NCBI GenBank assembly: GCA_016787725.1
Contig: JAEUTZ010000015.1
Location: forward strand, 1 to 64,000
From: Cyclobacteriaceae bacterium
Lineage (GTDB): Bacteria; Bacteroidota; Bacteroidia; Cytophagales; Cyclobacteriaceae
Length of the DNA: 64,000 nt
Direction of reading: 5' to 3'
Each line of letters opens with the position of its first letter. The stretch's first letter is position 1. The translations under genes and the position numbers were made by a program. A model generated the notes under the pieces. That model did not search any database. It saw only the letters and a program-made list of their open reading frames with translations, and was not told the origin of the DNA. Shown one piece after another: positions 7,647 to 15,166 of the stretch.

Positions 7647-9842
7647 CTACGCGAATGACTCGCTAAAGAAGTTTTGTGACAACATAAGTTGTTGTGGTGA
7701 ACCCATGGCTGACACAGTTCCATTCTCCAAAATATAAATGGTATCACACTCCTGAGCCATCAAAATCCGATGCGTTACCAGAATAGTTACTCGTCTCTCC
7801 TTATGTTTCATGATGAGGTTCATTACAAATTTTTCTGTTTTCCGATCCATGGCTGCAGTTGCTTCATCTAGAAGCAAAAGTTTGGGGTTACGAAACAACG
7901 CTCTTGCCAGAACCACTAATTGTTTCTGACCCCCAGAAAGATTAACACCCTCCTCCCCCACTAGGGTAAAATAACTTTGGGGCAACTCTGCAAAGAATTT
8001 ACCAAAGCCGGTTTCATCACAAAACTTTATGGCCCGCTCAAGTTCTTCCTGTTGATCGCTCAACACAATATTGTACAGTAATGTGCCATTAAATATTTTG
8101 GGCTCTTGTGGCACGGAAGCAATTTTTGAACGCCACCCCAATGTATCAATCTCGGTTAATGGAACTCCATCAATAAGAATGGATCCACTTTCGGGAGAAT
8201 AAAATTTTTGAAGTAGTTGCAGGAGTGTGCTTTTGCCATGCCCGCTCTCTCCCAATAGAGCAACCATTTTCCCGGCTTGTGCAAGCAGGTTTATGTCCTT
8301 TAATACTTGCTTACGACCCGGAAAACGAAACGATAGCTCTTTTACGACCAACTCCTTAATAATATAATCAGGTTGCACATGTTGCGCGGTCTCGGTTTCC
8401 TTTTTTATGGAGGTAAACTCAAACATTCTGTCAAACGCCACCAAAGCTTCTTGCACTTGTATATTGGAAACCATTAACCGGTTTACAGAAGGGATTATTC
8501 CACCAGCTATGCCCAATAAAGCAACCATTTCACCCAGCAATAATTGTTCCGAGATCACCAGCCATGCCGCTAACCCAAATACACCCATGGTAAACAACAC
8601 TCCGATGGTTTCAGAAAGCATCGAAAACCGAATTTGCACTTTGCCCAAATCAGCGATCTTCTGCTGAAACAACCCATAGACTGTCGAATTCAATTTTTCG
8701 AAAAAACTAAGTTTGTTCGATAGCTTAATATCGGCAACACCTTGCATAGTATCGATAAAATTACTCTCGGCTAAGGCATACCCGCTCATAACTTCTTTTT
8801 GAGCACGAACGATCGGTGAATTAAACCGATACCACAACACCGCATACACGGGCAAACAGCATATCATCAATACACCAATCCAACTGGAATAAACAAACAC
8901 AAAGCCGAGTGAAACCAAGACCACCAGCAGGTCGATGCTCACACTGCCAAACAAAACGGCTAGCACAGTTTGAATTCTGCGCGTATCGTTCATGCGGGCT
9001 ATTAGATCGCCCGTTTTGCGTGTATCAAAAAACGATTTAGGCAATGCCAGTAAGTTGTTGTAAAAACTCTGAATGATGCGGTTATTAAAATCCATGCCTT
9101 GCCGGATCATAAACAACCCGCGTAAAAAACCAAGACCACTCCGGGCCAGCAAGAGAATGGTTACGAGAACAAGGCTTAAAACAAGTTTTTGGTAATTATG
9201 GGCAGGCAGAATATCATCGATCAGTTTTTGAGAAAAAATAGCTGATGAAATACCCAGCCCCGCAATGAGAATACCCAGCACCAATGAGATCAGCAGGAGA
9301 TTGATATCTTCCTTGATCAGGCTAATGATCCATTGCCTCTTTTTTACTTTTTGTTCTGTGGCCTTCTCAAATGCAGGCGTGGGAACCAGTTTGAGTAAGG
9401 CTTTACTTTTCCAGATCTGATCCAGTTGAGCAGGGGTGCAGGTGATTAGGCCACGGGCGGGGTCATGGAGCCTCACCTCCGGCCCCTCTACACCGTCTTG
9501 CGGGACAGGCTCGGAGAGGGGGGCGGATTGCGGATAAAAGACCACATAATGCTGTAAGCGGTTATCGATCACTACATGCAAAATAGCGGGCTCGGTTAGT
9601 TCAGAAAGATTGGCCACTGACTCAGCTTCTAAACCCTCGGCATCAAAGCCGAGTTGTTGTGCAGCTTGCATTAAACCAAGCAAGGTAGTGCCTTGCCGCG
9701 AAGTGCCACTGAGTTTGCGAAGGTGTTCTAAACTTTGATTACCACCGTGAAATTTTATGATCGATAAAAGACAGGCCACGCCACAGTCGGATTGGTCATG
9801 TTGCCGTACGATCGATCTCTCTGTGTTTTTACCGGTATGCAT
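7647..9842 (-). CDS. C39-peptidase-containing ABC transporter (peptide maturation and export)
   Basis: A 731-residue PCAT-type exporter. Residues 8-150 are a C39 cysteine peptidase: Q14/C20 in RQHDQSDCGVACL, His98 in QHYVVFY and Asp127 in LHDPARG. This family cuts leader peptides after Gly-Gly and exports the core. The His-Asp spacing is 29, about 13 longer than the usual 16, because of a Pro-rich insertion (residues 104-123). Residues 170-455 are the transmembrane domain. The nucleotide-binding domain has Walker A GESGHGKST (531-539), signature LSGGQ (635-639), Walker B with E660, and H691. It closes the cluster that begins with the GG-leader peptide at 13412-13579. Confidence 0.93.
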   Translation of the reverse strand: MHTGKNTERSIVRQHDQSDCGVACLLSIIKFHGGNQSLEHLRKLSGTSRQGTTLLGLMQAAQQLGFDAEGLEAESVANLSELTEPAILHVVIDNRLQHYVVFYPQSAPLSEPVPQDGVEGPEVRLHDPARGLITCTPAQLDQIWKSKALLKLVPTPAFEKATEQKVKKRQWIISLIKEDINLLLISLVLGILIAGLGISSAIFSQKLIDDILPAHNYQKLVLSLVLVTILLLARSGLGFLRGLFMIRQGMDFNNRIIQSFYNNLLALPKSFFDTRKTGDLIARMNDTRRIQTVLAVLFGSVSIDLLVVLVSLGFVFVYSSWIGVLMICCLPVYAVLWYRFNSPIVRAQKEVMSGYALAESNFIDTMQGVADIKLSNKLSFFEKLNSTVYGLFQQKIADLGKVQIRFSMLSETIGVLFTMGVFGLAAWLVISEQLLLGEMVALLGIAGGIIPSVNRLMVSNIQVQEALVAFDRMFEFTSIKKETETAQHVQPDYIIKELVVKELSFRFPGRKQVLKDINLLAQAGKMVALLGESGHGKSTLLQLLQKFYSPESGSILIDGVPLTEIDTLGWRSKIASVPQEPKIFNGTLLYNIVLSDQQEELERAIKFCDETGFGKFFAELPQSYFTLVGEEGVNLSGGQKQLVVLARALFRNPKLLLLDEATAAMDRKTEKFVMNLIMKHKERRVTILVTHRILMAQECDTIYILENGTVSAMGSPQQLMLSQNFFSESFA
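9471..9524. repeat. GC-rich imperfect palindrome inserted in frame in the C39 domain
   Basis: Inside the exporter gene, CCCCTCT (9483-9489) and AGAGGGG (9515-9521) are inverted around GTCTTGCGGGAC. The stretch stands out as G/C-rich from its surroundings, and the encoded residues PQSAPLSEPVPQDGVEGPEV sit between catalytic His98 and Asp127, where family members have a shorter loop. It resembles dispersed GC-rich palindromic elements found in intergenic DNA; that origin is inference. Confidence 0.45.
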
Positions 9843-9900
9843 AATGAAGGATGGCCTTTCTTGTAGTTCTGAAATATCATACAGATCACACTATTGATAC

Positions 9901-10407
9901 TTATGGAACAATTTGTTCTATAGTAGCGCCACCCTTAAATCCCTTTAAGAAATATCCCGATTTGTCATATAAAATGACTGTTGGGTAAGGGATTGCAAAA
10001 TGCTTTAAGGTGGATGCGTTTAGAATTCCAATCTTTAATGACGAGAAGCCAGATAAATCAAATTTATTAGCGTAATCAATAATAACTGAAGGGTCTGCTG
10101 TTGATGCAAAAACTAAATGACATCTATTAAAAAGCTGCTTGTTTAATGAAATACTTGCAATCTGCTTAAAACAGGCTTCACACTCAGGATCAAATAGTAC
10201 CAATATTGTGTTATTGTACTTTGAATTCTTTAGTATAGAATAATCCTCAATAATTGTAATGTAATCTATTGGGATCTTCCCGTCAAACAAATTCTTTCCA
10301 AATTCCGAAACAGATTCTCTAGCATCTCTAATTTTATATGAGATCAAGCTTATTCCAATCAAAGCTGTAGTTAACAAAAAAATTATCAACAATTTCCTTG
10401 TAGCCAT
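9901..10407 (-). CDS. membrane-anchored thioredoxin-like protein (CEAC motif)
   Basis: A 168-residue protein with an N-terminal membrane anchor (residues 5-24) and a thioredoxin-like fold outside the membrane. Strand-CxxC is LVLFDPECEACFKQ (Cys76, Cys79), and the cis-proline region is IPYPTVILYD (Pro142). It resembles TlpA/ResA-type periplasmic thiol-disulfide proteins, though the CEAC dipeptide is not the classic CPxC. It lies 1 base after the membrane protein gene and 58 bases before the C39 exporter. In this context it could form, shuffle or reduce the cysteines of the six-Cys peptide (inference). Local sequence is visibly A/T-rich. Confidence 0.75.
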   Translation of the reverse strand: MATRKLLIIFLLTTALIGISLISYKIRDARESVSEFGKNLFDGKIPIDYITIIEDYSILKNSKYNNTILVLFDPECEACFKQIASISLNKQLFNRCHLVFASTADPSVIIDYANKFDLSGFSSLKIGILNASTLKHFAIPYPTVILYDKSGYFLKGFKGGATIEQIVP

Positions 10408-10408
10408 A

Positions 10409-11074
10409 TCAGTTTACATTAAATAACATCATTTTGATATAAATTCGTGCAACAACCCAAAATACCAATCCGACAAAGTAGCTTGAGAGAACAAGTCTCA
10501 AAGAGTCATCAAAGTCCCATGTCAAAACTTTTGATAATCCAAATCCCAACAATACCCAATAACTTATCTCAAAAAATGTAAAAACTTGTAATAGCGATGA
10601 TAACCAGAATGGGTCGCCTGAAGACAATAAAAATATTAAAGATCCAAAGGAATAATTATTGAATTCCTCAATCGCGACATCTTCAGCAATCACAAAATAA
10701 ACAAATTTTACGAGGGCCGGAATGACGAAGATTAAGTAGGACCATAATGTGACTCTCACCAATTTATCAAAGGATACGCTTTCATTATAGTACAAACAAC
10801 CCAAGTACAAGCATATGGATGTTCCTAAAACATTTAAAAGATGACTTACAGGTTCCCATATAGCTTTTAGAACATTGAATTTTAGAACTCTTTGGGTAAC
10901 ATCATGAATTCTATTTGGCTCAATTTTCTCCTCAAAATAACGGTAGTAAGTTTCTTCTGTCAAAATAAATTCGTTGCTAGCAAAGCTTATCACTACATAA
11001 ATAAATATGATAATAACAATACCCTGAACAAGTCCTTTTTTAGAATTTATTCTATCAATGAAGTATTTTGTCAC
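10409..11074 (-). CDS. polytopic membrane protein of unknown function (Yip1-like)
   Basis: A 221-residue protein with about five to six hydrophobic segments (near 15-31, 80-97, 108-129, 142-185 containing two, and 194-213). Spacing and length resemble Yip1-domain proteins, but I cannot confirm that from motifs. The GTG start overlaps the TGA of the upstream permease by GTGA, so it is translationally coupled. It sits between the ABC permeases and the thioredoxin-like gene and is likely a dedicated component of the peptide system, perhaps immunity or transport (inference). Confidence 0.6.
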   Translation of the reverse strand: MTKYFIDRINSKKGLVQGIVIIIFIYVVISFASNEFILTEETYYRYFEEKIEPNRIHDVTQRVLKFNVLKAIWEPVSHLLNVLGTSICLYLGCLYYNESVSFDKLVRVTLWSYLIFVIPALVKFVYFVIAEDVAIEEFNNYSFGSLIFLLSSGDPFWLSSLLQVFTFFEISYWVLLGFGLSKVLTWDFDDSLRLVLSSYFVGLVFWVVARIYIKMMLFNVN

Positions 11075-11871
11075 TTAAAAAAATTTGAATACTTGTAAAT
11101 TTTGTTTTTGAAAGCCGTGATCAATAGTGCAGTTAATAGTAAAAATATGATACTCATCACTTCATACCTCCCTATCAAGGAATCCGAAAGTCTCATTCCA
11201 TTTTCAATTTTTTTTCCTAGCCAGAAATTACTCATTGCCCAACCATAGGGCAAATAACTCATAAAGTCATATAAGCAAATAATGGGTGTAAAAACACTCA
11301 GCAACAATAATAACGCTCTATTCCTAAGATAGAAATGAATAAGTAAATGGAAGCACGTTGCGGCTGTTGCAATTAAATAGAATTTAGATAAGAAAACTCC
11401 AAGAACCAATAATGATTTACCAAATTCTATGAATTGGGTGTTCGGCAACATATAGGATAAAATTGCTCCTTCAAGCAATGTTTGTAAAAATAAAATGGTC
11501 ACTAAACCAAGATTTAAGAGCAAAGCTGCTGATAACTTAGCAAAGACATAAAACTCAGGTGGGACAGGCAAGGAAAGTAGGAATTTCCACATATTGTTGT
11601 CCCTTTCATTACTCAATATGAAGAAAAGAACAAGATTTGTAATTATTATTCCTAATGAACTAATAAATGCATATTGTCCTAAGTAAAACGAAGCAAATAG
11701 GCTGTCATAGCTCCCACTTTTACTAAGTTGAAACAATAGTTGACTATTGCTTACAATAAGCAGCATAGGTACCGTCTGTAGTAGTACACAAGAAATTAGT
11801 AAATATTGCACATACTTCTGTTTGACCGCTTTTCTCAAGTCGTTTCCTATAATTAGAATAAATTGATCCAT
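11071..11871 (-). CDS. ABC-2 type transporter permease (second subunit)
   Basis: A 266-residue integral membrane protein with six hydrophobic segments and the amphipathic N-terminal start IIGNDLRKAVKQKYVQYLL typical of ABC-2 permeases. The segment FFILSNERDNNMWKFLLSLPV after TM2 matches the cytoplasmic coupling region seen in antibiotic and lantibiotic immunity permeases. It starts 5 bases after the first permease and ends in a 4-base overlap with the next gene. With the neighbouring ATPase and first permease it should form a heteromeric exporter. Specific substrate is not readable from sequence. Confidence 0.8.
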   Translation of the reverse strand: MDQFILIIGNDLRKAVKQKYVQYLLISCVLLQTVPMLLIVSNSQLLFQLSKSGSYDSLFASFYLGQYAFISSLGIIITNLVLFFILSNERDNNMWKFLLSLPVPPEFYVFAKLSAALLLNLGLVTILFLQTLLEGAILSYMLPNTQFIEFGKSLLVLGVFLSKFYLIATAATCFHLLIHFYLRNRALLLLLSVFTPIICLYDFMSYLPYGWAMSNFWLGKKIENGMRLSDSLIGRYEVMSIIFLLLTALLITAFKNKIYKYSNFFK

Positions 11872-11876
11872 ACGAC

Positions 11877-12647
11877 TTAAAGGCTTGAGATTAATCGCTT
11901 GTTAAAAAGCTTGAGCGCAGACAGTAGAATCAATATAAATACACCGGTTTTAATATAGACGCCCAAGTTTATAGATGCCCCTGATTGTATTGTCCAAAAC
12001 AGGCGAATGGCTTCTTTATGAAAAAAAAAGGGATTTAAAGAAAAGTTAAAATATCCTATCAACACTGAGCAAGTGATTATTATTCCAGGATTATCAAAAA
12101 TCATTGTTATAATAAACAAAATAATAAATGCGGGTAGCGATGCTAGATATACACTTCCCATGATGAGCAGGAGTGTTTCAGTATCCAGCCCCGAATAGCT
12201 TTCAAAAAACCAGTCCTGTTTAAAGTTTTTTAGGTGATTAATTACACCAATCAACGCTAGTATCACTAAAGCCTTGGATATGGCAATGTGAATCATCCCA
12301 GTAAGCAATTTTGACCACACTACATTTATGGTTCTTAGAGGTAATGACTTTAAATATTTCCATCCTTTTGCCTTTCTCTCTATTTCAAAAAACCAAATTA
12401 GAAAAACAGAATAGTAGGGAATAAGAAGGAATGTAAAAATTAATTGAAACCATTTGTAAAAATAGTTGTAAGGATTCAGATCACTGTTTGTACTTAGTAC
12501 TCTCTGCTCAAATTCAGTATACGGCATTGGGTAAATAAACAAGAAAACCGTTAGCACTGGCAGAGTTAATACAAAAAGTAATCCTATTGAAAGTGGGCTC
12601 TTCAGACATTTTACAAACTCATTTTTTATTGCTAGCATAATCATCAT
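11877..12647 (-). CDS. ABC-2 type transporter permease (first subunit)
   Basis: A 256-residue permease with six hydrophobic segments and a cytoplasmic coupling motif FEIERKAKGWKYLKSLPLRT after TM2, nearly the same as in its sister gene. This arrangement, one BcrA/LanF-like ATPase plus two different permeases, is the standard layout of LanFEG-type self-protection transporters. Its ATG overlaps the ATPase stop by ATGA (12644-12647). Several ATG codons (at 12647, 12644, 12638) are possible starts; the first fits the coupling. Confidence 0.8.
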   Translation of the reverse strand: MMIMLAIKNEFVKCLKSPLSIGLLFVLTLPVLTVFLFIYPMPYTEFEQRVLSTNSDLNPYNYFYKWFQLIFTFLLIPYYSVFLIWFFEIERKAKGWKYLKSLPLRTINVVWSKLLTGMIHIAISKALVILALIGVINHLKNFKQDWFFESYSGLDTETLLLIMGSVYLASLPAFIILFIITMIFDNPGIIITCSVLIGYFNFSLNPFFFHKEAIRLFWTIQSGASINLGVYIKTGVFILILLSALKLFNKRLISSL

Positions 12648-13351
12648 TGATAATGCGCTTTGGTAAGTTTGAAATATATACTATTCAGGTCGTCACTATC
12701 CATCCTGTTTATCTCAATAGCTTGTGTGGAAACTCCTCGATGAAGCACAACAACATGTGTTGCTACTTTTTCTAATTCAGTAAGATGATGACTTGAGATT
12801 AGGAATGTTGCTCCCTTTTCCTTGTTAAATCTTATTATTAAGTTCTTTAGATCGTTGAGACCATCAGGATCTAAGCCATTTGTTGGTTCATCTAATATTA
12901 CCAATTCTGGTTTACCGATCATAGCCAGCGCAAGGCCTAATCTTTGTTTCATGCCAAGCGATAGGGATTTCACTTTCTGCTTCTTCTTCTCATCTAAACC
13001 TACACTACTCAATAACTCCTCACTGTAACCTTTTTCTACTCGATAGATACGCCTAGCCAGTTCAAGGTTTTCCAAAGGAGTTAAGTGTTCGTATAATGAA
13101 GCTTGTTCAATTAAGGACCCGATCTTTTTAAGATGTTCTATTCTGTTGAATTCATTCAATTGTTGACCGTCAATTGAAATTGAGCCAGATAATGGTTCTA
13201 ATACCCCTAAAATAAGTTTTATTAAGGTTGATTTACCTGCACCATTCTGACCAAGCAATCCACAGATTGCATTTTTTGGAACTTCAAATGTTACATTTTC
13301 TAAAATTGTACTTTCTTTTACCTTATAGGTGATTGATTTAACTCCTAACAT
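12644..13351 (-). CDS. ABC transporter ATP-binding protein (BcrA/LanF-like)
   Basis: A 235-residue ATPase with Walker A GQNGAGKST, Q-loop SLIEQASLYEHLT, signature LSLGMKQRLGLA, Walker B LVILDEPTNGLD and the H-loop ISSHH. The LSLGM signature and short length are typical of ABC-2 drug and bacteriocin immunity ATPases. A TTG at 13363 is also open, but the ATG at 13351 is the better start. It is the first transport gene after the peptide gene, from which it is separated by 60 bases containing a strong hairpin. Confidence 0.9.
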   Translation of the reverse strand: MLGVKSITYKVKESTILENVTFEVPKNAICGLLGQNGAGKSTLIKLILGVLEPLSGSISIDGQQLNEFNRIEHLKKIGSLIEQASLYEHLTPLENLELARRIYRVEKGYSEELLSSVGLDEKKKQKVKSLSLGMKQRLGLALAMIGKPELVILDEPTNGLDPDGLNDLKNLIIRFNKEKGATFLISSHHLTELEKVATHVVVLHRGVSTQAIEINRMDSDDLNSIYFKLTKAHYQ

Positions 13352-13376
13352 AATATCAATCAATTTAGCACAAAAG

Positions 13377-13408
13377 AAAATAAGCTGGTTAAATAACCAG
13401 CTTATTTT
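13377..13408 (-). terminator. strong hairpin between the peptide gene and the ABC genes
   Basis: Fifteen-base complementary arms (13377-13391 and 13394-13408) lie 3 bases after the peptide stop codon. On the minus strand the right-hand arm ends in a T-rich stretch, so it can act as an intrinsic terminator. Because the ATPase gene starts only 26 bases further on with no obvious promoter of its own, partial read-through is likely, giving far more peptide mRNA than transporter mRNA. That behaviour is inference. Confidence 0.7.
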
Positions 13409-13411
13409 TCA

Positions 13412-13579
13412 TTACCATGGTTCAATATAAAGTAATGTGCCATCACAACTAAAACAAACCGCCCAATCTCCAAAACCTGTTACTCCACCTAAATCCCAAT
13501 GCTCACAGCAAATACCTGCTCCTTGGCAGGTACAACCTCCAGCAAGCTGTTCCGATTTTTCCATTGTAAGTTTTTTCAT
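13412..13579 (-). CDS. double-glycine leader peptide precursor, six-cysteine core
   Basis: A 55-codon gene. The N-terminal 15 residues, MKKLTMEKSEQLAGG, match a C39-type leader: hydrophobic residues at L4, M6(or S9)/L12 spacing and a terminal Gly14-Gly15. The 40-residue core starts at Cys16 and has six cysteines (16, 18, 24, 25, 42, 45), three tryptophans (28, 39, 55) and many glycines, with net negative charge. A C39 exporter, CxxC protein and ABC trio follow on the same strand. By analogy with Bacteroidota GG-leader peptides such as bacteroidetocins it is probably a bacteriocin-like or signalling peptide, but I see no sequence-level match that fixes activity. The competing antisense frame (13499-13726) lacks any such features. 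Confidence 0.75.
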   Translation of the reverse strand: MKKLTMEKSEQLAGGCTCQGAGICCEHWDLGGVTGFGDWAVCFSCDGTLLYIEPW

Positions 13580-13630
13580 AACATAACTTTAGATTTAATT
13601 TCACCGGTTAAACCCTGCTCCGGCTGCAGT

Positions 13631-13644
13631 TGTTTTGCAAAACA
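13631..13644. promoter_or_regulatory. 14-bp perfect palindrome upstream of the peptide gene
   Basis: TGTTTTGCAAAACA is perfectly self-complementary and lies 52 bases upstream of the peptide ATG, in the divergent region shared with the NarL-type regulator. It overlaps the place where a peptide promoter would be expected (on the minus strand a TATGTTTTG is close to, but one base longer than, the TAnnTTTG box). It could be the operator for the adjacent regulator; this is inference. Confidence 0.4.
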
Positions 13645-13683
13645 TAATGAACTAAAAACTTATTATCGTGTAAATCAACCCCA

Positions 13684-13731
13684 CCCCCATAAATGGGGGG
13701 TTGTTGGCCCCCGGATTTCCGGGTAACTTTA
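13684..13731 (+). promoter_or_regulatory. response-regulator promoter with two embedded palindromes
   Basis: On the plus strand TAACTTTA (13724-13731, one base off TAnnTTTG) has TTG at 13701-13703, a 20-base spacer, and lies 17 bases before the regulator ATG. Two perfect inverted repeats surround the -33 box: CCCCCAT/ATGGGGG (13684-13690, 13693-13699) and CCCGGA/TCCGGG (13710-13715, 13718-13723). The G run and C run (13696-13700, 13708-13712) could also pair with each other. Autoregulation is plausible. Confidence 0.4.
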
Positions 13732-13747
13732 GTTCACAAATACCTGC

Positions 13748-14380
13748 ATGGAGCCTGGCGTTTTGGTGGTGGATGATCACGTAATGACCTGTGATGGTAT
13801 CGCTGCGTTGGTTGAAAAGCAATGCCCGGTCAAAAGCTACACAGCCTATGGAGCTGAACGCGCATTGGAAATTCTGAAGCAAACCCGGATTCAGGTAGCC
13901 ATGATTGATGCCCGCATGCCGGGCATCAGTGGAGTTGAATTGATGCACCGTCTGAAGAAAGAATCGCCTTCACTAAAATTGATCGGCATGACCAGCTTTG
14001 ATGAGGACGAAACCATTCTGGACTTACTTCGCACCGGCATACCCGGAATAATTCTTAAGCGCAATACCACAGGAGCTGAAATCAAAACCTGCCTGGAGGC
14101 CGTGCTGGCGGGTAAATCCTATTACACCGCAGAAATCTGGAACCGGTTTAACCAGGGTGGATACGACCTATTAAAAGAAAAGATTCGGTTCTCCAAACGG
14201 GAGTTTGATTTGTTACTCCTGCTCGCTCAGGGATACTCCACCAAACAGGCCGCAGAAGTCCTCAAGCTCAGCGAAAATACTGTTGAAGATTATCGAAAGC
14301 AAATGCTAAAAAAGTCAAACACAAAAAATACAACCGAGCTAGTGGCCTTCGTGCTCAGTAATGGATTGCTGCTCCGGTAA
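13748..14380 (+). CDS. NarL/FixJ family response regulator
   Basis: A 210-residue regulator with an N-terminal receiver domain (phospho-acceptor Asp54 in AMIDARMPG, acidic pair D9/D10, Lys near residue 100) and a C-terminal LuxR-type helix-turn-helix around residues 150-205 (LLAQGYSTKQAAEVLKLSEN). It is divergent from the GG-leader peptide and its 3' end overlaps the opposing histidine kinase gene by 42 bases. The pair probably forms one phosphorelay; the target genes are not shown by sequence, but the adjacent peptide cluster is the obvious candidate. Confidence 0.9.
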   Translation: MEPGVLVVDDHVMTCDGIAALVEKQCPVKSYTAYGAERALEILKQTRIQVAMIDARMPGISGVELMHRLKKESPSLKLIGMTSFDEDETILDLLRTGIPGIILKRNTTGAEIKTCLEAVLAGKSYYTAEIWNRFNQGGYDLLKEKIRFSKREFDLLLLLAQGYSTKQAAEVLKLSENTVEDYRKQMLKKSNTKNTTELVAFVLSNGLLLR

Positions 14381-15166
14381 CCGAATGGTAACCGAAAGCC
14401 CCCGGGTTACTTTTTCAAAATCAATAGTCGCATTAATTTTTTTGGCCCGCTCCTGCAACGACAACATACCGATTCCATACCCTCTGCCTCGCCCCAACCC
14501 CTGCCCGTTGTCGCCCACCCATAAGGTTAACACCTTACCCCAGGTCATCCGGATTATTATCTGAAAGCCCGTAGAGCTTTTCAGCGAGTTATGAACCAAT
14601 TCATGCACCATGTAGTACAACTCCTGCTTCACAGGGGGCTCGATGGTAAAGGCTCGCTCCGGAGAAACTGTTTCTAACTTTATCTCCTGATGGTGCAACG
14701 TGCCTAATTTTTCTGCCAATTCCTTAACCAGGTACTCGAGTGAATGTTGTTGAAACCGGGGTTGAATCTGATTATTGATCAGAAACCGAAGCGTAGCAAT
14801 AATCTGATCGATTTCTCTTCGTAAATCTTCTACTTCCTGACTAACCCGTGGATGATTGGGGTAATCGAGCAATTGTTCCAACTTAAACCGAACGGCTACC
14901 ATTCGCTGCACCGTATCATCATGAAGTTCCGTGGCCAACCTCCGTTGTTCGCGTTCCACCGCAACGGCTTCCCAATATCCACGGTCAGCATCACTCCGTT
15001 GACTTTTTCGTTGAAGCAAATCTTTCATATTGCTAATCAGTTCCTGGGAATCCCGGTTTTCCGCTACCAGCTTATTAAATCGCTTTTGAAGATTTCGGAC
15101 ATAGAAAGAAATCGGGAAAATCAAGATTACGATCAGCAAGACTACTATCCAGATTGCACCGACCAT
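14339..15166 (-). CDS. NarL-type sensor histidine kinase (HisKA_3)
   Basis: A 275-residue kinase with a single N-terminal membrane span (residues 3-23), a coiled linker (25-75), the HisKA_3 dimerisation helix with phospho-accepting His82 (ATELHDDTVQRM) and a HATPase domain with the N box HELVHNSLKSS and G box GDNGQGLGRG. There is no periplasmic sensor domain, so the signal is probably sensed in the membrane or the cytoplasm. HisKA_3 kinases partner with LuxR-type regulators, which fits the convergent neighbour despite the opposite strand. Confidence 0.9.
   Translation of the reverse strand: MVGAIWIVVLLIVILIFPISFYVRNLQKRFNKLVAENRDSQELISNMKDLLQRKSQRSDADRGYWEAVAVEREQRRLATELHDDTVQRMVAVRFKLEQLLDYPNHPRVSQEVEDLRREIDQIIATLRFLINNQIQPRFQQHSLEYLVKELAEKLGTLHHQEIKLETVSPERAFTIEPPVKQELYYMVHELVHNSLKSSTGFQIIIRMTWGKVLTLWVGDNGQGLGRGRGYGIGMLSLQERAKKINATIDFEKVTRGLSVTIRLPEQQSITEHEGH

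Follow-up and report, generated by a model that had tools for sequence, protein, structure and literature searches.

A candidate bacteroidetocin-like bacteriocin locus of Cyclobacteriaceae with a putative two-component controller and interchangeable cassettes

A 64,000-nucleotide stretch from a Cyclobacteriaceae bacterium (GenBank assembly GCA_016787725.1, contig JAEUTZ010000015.1, positions 1 to 64,000; hereafter the window) contains a locus in which the gene of a 55-residue peptide with a Gly-Gly leader and a six-cysteine core is flanked by genes for an exporter and accessory proteins on one side and for a response regulator and a histidine kinase on the other (Table 1). The first-pass annotation of the window limited the locus to positions 7647-13579; it reaches 15166, and the regulator, the kinase, two palindromes, and a hairpin had not been included. 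Judged from sequence comparisons, the locus probably encodes a bacteroidetocin-like bacteriocin with disulfide bonds, governed by a conserved two-component controller that serves interchangeable cassettes.

Table 1. Features of the locus, in window coordinates
Feature	Position	Strand	Basis or remark
C39 peptidase-ATP-binding cassette (ABC) exporter	7647..9842	-	Domain profiles, structure match, catalytic residues
Membrane-anchored thioredoxin-like protein (thiol oxidoreductase)	9901..10407	-	CEAC motif, profile, fold
YknW/Yip1-like multi-spanning membrane protein	10409..11074	-	Weak profile matches
ABC-2 permease 2	11071..11871	-	ABC2_membrane_4, 2e-7
ABC-2 permease 1	11877..12647	-	ABC2_membrane_4, 6.7e-9
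LanF/BcrA-like ATPase	12644..13363	-	TTG start at 13363 or ATG at 13351
Hairpin with T-rich tail	13377..13409	-	Directly after the peptide stop; terminator-like, perhaps partial
Precursor peptide gene, 55 residues	13412..13579	-	Translation; leader profile; position behind the operator as in G718, G719, and G019
Candidate Bacteroidota -7 promoter element	13638..13646	-	TATGTTTTG
Operator box B	13684..13699		CCCCCATTTATGGGGG; minus-strand tail TGGGGTTGATTT is conserved
Operator box A, degenerate palindrome	13708..13723		CCCGGAAATCCGGGGG; boxes A and B start 24 bp apart
LuxR-type response regulator, divergent from the peptide gene	13748..14380	+	ATG 24 bp from operator box A
Histidine kinase, HisKA_3 type	14339..15166	-	One N-terminal transmembrane (TM) segment

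Peptide, exporter, and accessory genes

The peptide is translated from an ATG at 13579. Residues 1-15 form the leader (MKKLTMEKSEQLAGG), which ends in glycines 14 and 15, and residues 16-55 form the 40-residue core. The cysteines occupy positions 16, 18, 24, 25, 42, and 45 (CxC, CC, and CxxC), and the core contains neither lysine nor arginine and has a net charge of -5. A 15-column leader profile, made from 22 Gly-Gly leaders of related loci with that of the window left out, was applied to all 1278 starts in the window with an open frame of 35-110 codons. The peptide scored 25.2 bits and the runner-up 2.8 bits; when the window was resampled 100 times with a Markov model, no resampling gave 25.2 bits or more (top score 12.8). 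The training leaders, each left out in turn, scored 11.3 to 45.5 bits, a range that includes the window leader. The leader is far above chance, and the 55-codon gene, its Gly14-Gly15 leader, and the six-cysteine core lie where the first-pass annotation had placed them.

The search for relatives of the core, which that annotation had proposed, was run against genomes of the order, contigs, viral contigs, plasmids, and profile libraries, and found none. Among 292 genomes of the order, 76 (its own included) gave matches at E up to 1, with no usable homologue; the best match outside the window (E 0.004) has an internal stop in its frame. None of 65 candidate stretches from the contigs of the genome collection was accepted, there was no match to the core in plasmids, and the peptide matched nothing in Pfam, NCBIfam, PHROGs, or PADLOC. 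Four loci in viral contigs, which matched only 12 residues of the peptide, were taken as chance. The core had been described as unfamiliar, and in these searches it is an orphan, whereas the kind of system it belongs to is already known.

The missing homologue, together with overlapping plus-strand open reading frames (ORFs) at 13437-13586 and 13499-13726, would fit a spurious peptide frame or a true gene on the opposite strand. This is hardly credible given the leader profile, the operator, the hairpin, and the Gly-Gly peptides that fill the same slot behind the operator in genomes G718, G719, and G019; the plus-strand frame 13499-13726 would, moreover, cross the operator. The hairpin after the peptide gene (a 66-nucleotide stretch) has a folding energy of -19.4 kcal/mol (z -4.86), which none of 200 shuffled sequences equaled.

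The exporter contains Peptidase_C39 (E 2.5e-26), ABC membrane, and ABC ATPase domains. Its residues Q14, C20, H98, and D127, which we take to be catalytic, fall within C39 motifs. In an alignment of nine relatives, the glutamine and cysteine are present in eight, the frame of the ninth having been called too short, and the histidine and aspartate in all nine. Residues 11-722 match a solved structure of an "ABC-type bacteriocin transporter" (4ry2). The domains and C39 residues bear out the exporter of the first-pass annotation. Its order and overlaps are likewise confirmed for the genes of the LanF-like ATPase, the two ABC-2 permeases, the polytopic protein, and the CxxC protein, which lie between exporter and peptide gene in the same minus-strand run.

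The thioredoxin-like protein, which carries the motif CEAC, has no match in Pfam. A profile made from it and 11 proteins of related loci, 12 in all, retrieves thioredoxins and thiol-disulfide oxidoreductases of the ResA type (E 1e-13). Its AlphaFold model (predicted local distance difference test score 84.5) consists of an N-terminal helix and a thioredoxin-like domain, and a fold search with the model returned the same families as the profile. A second thioredoxin-like protein of the same genome (G000:C10) has no peptide cluster around it. The neighboring membrane protein matches YknW_fam (E 4e-8) and Yip1 (E 3e-5), in both cases under the curated cut-offs. Simple hydropathy gives it three segments and its AlphaFold model five helices of at least 18 residues; Foldseek found nothing for the model at E 0.001 or lower.

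The best fit of the ATPase is the lantibiotic-protection ATPase family TIGR03740, with 216.8 bits, which is below the cut-off of 309.75. In PADLOC, exporter and ATPase match ABC or other ATPase models. Sequence and context point to a trio of the protection type, in line with the immunity-type ABC trio of the first-pass annotation.

No peptide-modifying enzyme was found with Pfam and NCBIfam among the nine proteins of positions 7647-15166, including LanB/LanC, LanM, or a similar lanthipeptide enzyme. This bears on the idea that the six cysteines bind metal and that the product is a secreted metal-binding peptide. The spacing of the cysteines (CxC, CC, and CxxC) and the acidic core would suit such a role, which is nonetheless very unlikely: MNIO, radical SAM, LanM, and YcaO enzymes are absent from the nine scanned proteins, peptides behind the same operator elsewhere have two cysteines or none, and the thiol oxidoreductase points to disulfides.

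Related cassettes and known systems

The YknW-like profile matches 25 of 395 genomes of the phylum, including that of the window. The gene-order comparison suggested with the first-pass annotation was made on the window and 31 fetched loci that carry a YknW-like or a close C39 protein; fetched loci with neither (e.g. L073 to L079 and L176 to L179) were left unscored. YknW-like, thioredoxin-like, and C39 proteins occur together in 20 loci, window included, and 16 of these have a Gly-Gly peptide. Three of the four loci without one (L071, L138, and L149) end at a contig edge; the fourth is L152. When L197 (G719), the proteins of which are in the profile alignments and were not found by phmmer, is set aside, the count is 15 of 19. 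None of ten loci with a YknW-like protein and no strong C39 exporter has a Gly-Gly peptide; two of them (L139 and L140) do encode a weaker C39 protein, together with a small ORF that resembles a leader peptide. Three of 23 leader-like small ORFs were judged to be chance ORFs, and the counts given here are those of the scored loci. An ATPase like that of the window is nearby in 11 of the 20 loci, among which the 682-residue ATPase of L149 should not be counted, as it looks like an ABC-F protein. Even numbers of cysteines are found in 29 of 31 cores, window included: two in 20 cores, four in six, six in one, and none in two.

The same set occurs on a 61-kb plasmid of Flammeovirga pectinis, where successive genes encode the membrane protein (E 1e-34 with the profile), a redoxin (3e-29), an exporter of the C39 type with 36% identity to that of the window, and a two-cysteine Gly-Gly peptide. 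On this plasmid (L209, NZ_CP034564.1, 4817-12252) the set is followed by GLPGLI, LanC-family, and glycosyltransferase genes, and it is perhaps a modified relative. Four-cysteine peptides with KFWG or KFFG after the leader lie beside YknW-like and C39 genes at L150 (9239) and L151 (8420 and 8201); they are candidates for bacteroidetocin-type peptides.

The bacteroidetocin set as published (Coyne et al. 2019, PMC6671954) comprises a TM protein, a C39 exporter, a thiol oxidoreductase, and a Gly-Gly peptide that has four cysteines and a leader of 15 residues. According to the text of that article, deletion of the gene for the peptide, the TM protein, or the thiol oxidoreductase in each case attenuated activity, and the four genes were sufficient in E. 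coli. The same text gives cores of 42-48 residues for A, B, and the first relatives and 35-50 residues in its discussion, and reports a thiol oxidoreductase in most regions and five TM regions in the TM protein (PMC6671954). Killing of Bacteroidota through BamA is a further mark of bacteroidetocins. Nineteen had been identified by 2021 (PMC8546649). The text of PMC6671954 nowhere uses the terms regulator, two-component, or histidine kinase.

Bacteroidetocins A-D (class IIf) and the window locus have in common the 15-residue Gly-Gly leader, a cysteine-containing core of about 40 residues (four cysteines in A and B), and, as neighbors, a thiol oxidoreductase, a multi-spanning TM protein, and a C39 exporter. 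Four parts expected of a bacteroidetocin are present: a leader of 15-16 residues ending in Gly-Gly (here 15), a small core with at least two cysteines (here 40 residues and six cysteines), a C39 peptidase-ABC exporter, and a neighboring thiol oxidoreductase (the CEAC protein, ResA-like by profile and fold). The YknW/Yip1-like protein would be the counterpart of the bacteroidetocin TM protein. The window differs in its six cysteines, its core, the ABC trio, and the divergent two-component system with its operator. By a comparison of gene content with the published description, the cluster is a bacteroidetocin gene set with extra genes.

Other systems share single parts of this arrangement. Pediocin-type class IIa operons have a Gly-Gly leader, a C39 exporter, and a thiol-disulfide helper, the last a thioredoxin-like accessory protein, but they belong to Gram-positive hosts, are not known to have such an ABC trio, and encode peptides with the motif YGNGV, which is absent from the translation of the window peptide. 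In LanFEG/BcrAB lantibiotic protection (TIGR03740), one ATPase and two ABC-2 permeases likewise lie beside a peptide, although there is no lanthionine enzyme among the scanned proteins of the window. YknW of the Bacillus YknWXYZ system is described as a membrane protein tied to protection from a peptide toxin (PMC4887032); the relation to the window is a weak profile match, and YknXYZ partners are absent from the scanned proteins. In the pln regulon of lactic acid bacteria, response regulators are reported to act on DNA repeats before class II bacteriocin genes (PMC2714321), whereas in the window the regulator is of the LuxR type, the kinase has one TM segment, the DNA elements are palindromes, and a pheromone is not evident.

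Operator, controller, and chromosomal sites

Two palindromes (13684-13723) lie between the regulator and peptide genes and are followed by TGGGGTTGATTT. The exact 16-base box was found as a single copy in its own genome. The assignment of 13638-13646 as a -7 element presumes the promoter consensus of the phylum; TATGTTT within it is invariant in an alignment of four promoters. The same operator, regulator, and kinase precede unrelated Gly-Gly peptides in three other lineages. In G019, which belongs to another genus of the family, the palindrome pair (25 bp) is found before three of four Gly-Gly peptide genes, the fourth gene lies directly behind the second, and the homologous regulator and kinase are alongside. 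Among the four lineages, the kinases are 35-60% and the regulators 43-66% identical, and the peptides (six-cysteine, a cysteine-free pair, and two-cysteine) share only the leader.

A 22-base pattern built from the window and G019 promoters was found in five stretches over 84,980 species, four of them before Gly-Gly peptide genes. Two of the five, in UBA5585, are a copy of the G019 locus. Outside the building set, two of three hits precede Gly-Gly peptides; both are in Cyclobacteriaceae metagenome-assembled genomes (L190 and L191), where the operator sits between a divergent regulator/kinase pair and the peptide gene. The third, from a Synergistales metagenome-assembled genome, lies inside a long ORF and was rejected. 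No match was found in viral contigs. In 336 genomes of the family, exact matches occur at four places in three genomes, and each of these places precedes a Gly-Gly peptide. In one of the three, G835, the locus is the one already represented by L191. Allowing up to two mismatches gave ten places in nine genomes against seven control places, and the six places with two mismatches alone do not exceed the control. In a scan of nine genomes with up to two mismatches, the reversed control matched as often as the box in most, and in its own genome the box gave two strand-matches, which are one palindromic place, against four control matches. The search with mismatches is not specific, and we trust the four exact places and that of G933, because the latter adjoins a regulator/kinase pair.

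In G933 (L202, G933:C65, 1-330), which is of the same genus, operator, regulator, and kinase are present, with no intact peptide frame behind the operator before the contig ends, possibly a decayed or emptied site. At L176 (G305, 9708), a palindrome CCCCCGATTACTGGGG lies 68 bp before a more distant regulator homologue, with no Gly-Gly peptide or C39 gene near.

The locus of G718 lies at the same chromosomal site as that of the window, between a pair of M16 peptidase genes and a PfkB gene. Its cargo, operator, regulator, and kinase are arranged as they are in the window, and two extra genes precede PfkB. The cargo there comprises two cysteine-free Gly-Gly peptides, an Rce1-like membrane protease, an HlyD protein, and a C39 exporter 30% identical to that of the window. 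Rce1-like proteins can be bacteriocin immunity proteins. The gap between kinase and PfkB in G718 (L198, G718:C35, 10812-12567) encodes a Fic-domain protein and a DUF3267 membrane protein; in the window nothing is found there. In G226, from the genus of the window, M16 peptidase and PfkB genes are 181 bp apart and the block is absent, and in G035, from another genus, they are adjacent (115 bp). The block is absent from the PfkB regions of all 11 relatives fetched, but the neighbors differ in nine, so that the evidence for an empty site rests mainly on G226. The G226 spacer (L097, 7731-7913) contains CCCTGTAATAAATGGGG, which is like a degenerate operator box and may be chance or a remnant.

G719 and G019 carry the controller at a different site, beside two common neighbor genes and with other peptides. 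The G719 exporter is 59% identical to that of the window. About 5 kb from the bacteriocin locus of G719, an 87-residue ORF with a cysteine-, glycine-, and serine-rich tail lies next to another response regulator (L197, 16321-16584). The G019 exporter gene is interrupted and split into two ORFs (L137, 9776-11944), as it is in the UBA5585 copy; the four Gly-Gly peptides and their operators persist despite this.

These data fit a conserved controller serving exchanged cargo. The GC contents of the window locus are 32-35% for the genes from thioredoxin-like protein to ATPase, 44% for the exporter, and 47-48% for regulator and kinase, compared with 44.6% for the window. There is an even chance, in our estimate, that a resident controller (one-TM kinase, LuxR-type regulator, and tandem CCCCCATTTATGGGGG-type operators) marks fixed docking sites at which bacteriocin cassettes are swapped, and that the six-cysteine peptide and the low-GC helper/ABC block landed recently.

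The difference in GC content could also mean that the locus is a bacteriocin locus beside which the kinase and regulator of another pathway lie by accident, and in all four of four other family genomes with regulator homologues (E 7e-45 to 4e-31) there is no such cluster beside them. We hold this to be improbable, as four lineages, at two different chromosomal sites, combine a close regulator and kinase with the operator and a Gly-Gly peptide, and as the operator in G019 is also found upstream of a peptide gene that lies some 6 kb away from the regulator (L137, 12098).

The peptide might instead be secreted as a signal (autoinducer) that the adjacent kinase perceives, with exporter and trio merely handling it. 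The adjacency of the kinase and regulator genes and the operator before the peptide gene agree with this, and Firmicutes are known to use Gly-Gly pheromones together with C39 exporters and two-component systems. Peptide-pheromone kinases are generally multi-spanning or have an extracellular sensor part; the kinase of the window, with one N-terminal TM segment and no extracellular domain, lacks such a sensor. That the controller is conserved while the peptides behind the operator share only the leader speaks against a kinase that senses the peptide of its own locus, and a signal would not be expected to come with an ABC trio of the protection type. Signaling is therefore unlikely. Of the two roles offered in the first-pass annotation, bacteriocin-like or signaling, the second is weakened, and the first is supported by sequence and context, as a C39-processed, exported, probably disulfide-bonded, bacteriocin-like peptide.

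Proposed mechanism and implications

Several points weigh against a bacteroidetocin-like bacteriocin under a shared controller. As no relative of the six-cysteine core was detected, a function can be read from its context only. The charge of the core is negative and that of classical bacteriocins positive, yet several of the related cores are anionic too. The leader profile was trained on loci of the same type, which makes the count of 16 in 20 partly circular. The G719 protein in the thioredoxin position has no CxxC and is unrecognized by phmmer, and two of the 31 cores have an odd number of cysteines (one and three). Only conservation points to DNA binding by the regulator. Finally, bacteroidetocins have no obvious immunity gene according to the text of PMC6671954, so the ABC trio may act otherwise here.

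The locus as found in the DNA (gene content and order, C39 residues, CxxC motif, leader, conserved operator, and differing cargo) suggests the following course of events. A membrane or intracellular cue would reach the one-TM kinase, and the response regulator would switch the peptide on by binding the two palindromes that separate the regulator gene from the peptide gene. The hairpin after the peptide gene may let only part of the transcripts into the transporter genes. As in its family, the C39 domain would cleave behind Gly15 during export of the 40-residue core through the inner membrane. The membrane-anchored CxxC protein is expected to oxidize the six cysteines, probably to three disulfides, presumably assisted by the YknW/Yip1-like protein, as by its bacteroidetocin counterpart. 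The LanF-like trio would keep the peptide out of the membrane of the producer, and the product would be an unmodified, disulfide-bonded antibacterial peptide of the class II type.

The finding is real and the class of system is known; the six-cysteine core and the combination of trio and controller are new within what was searched. No regulator or immunity gene of bacteroidetocins is described in the texts of PMC6671954 and PMC8546649, most subscription papers and the supplements being outside the search. The window locus supplies candidates for a regulator, an operator, and a self-protection system that can be put to the test, and the 22-base DNA pattern finds such loci independently of peptide homology (two of the three independent hits). 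Of greatest interest is the controller with its interchangeable cassettes. One controller at one chromosomal site with different peptides also amounts to a natural experiment. If the docking-site reading is true, any peptide that lands behind the operator would fall under one common cue.

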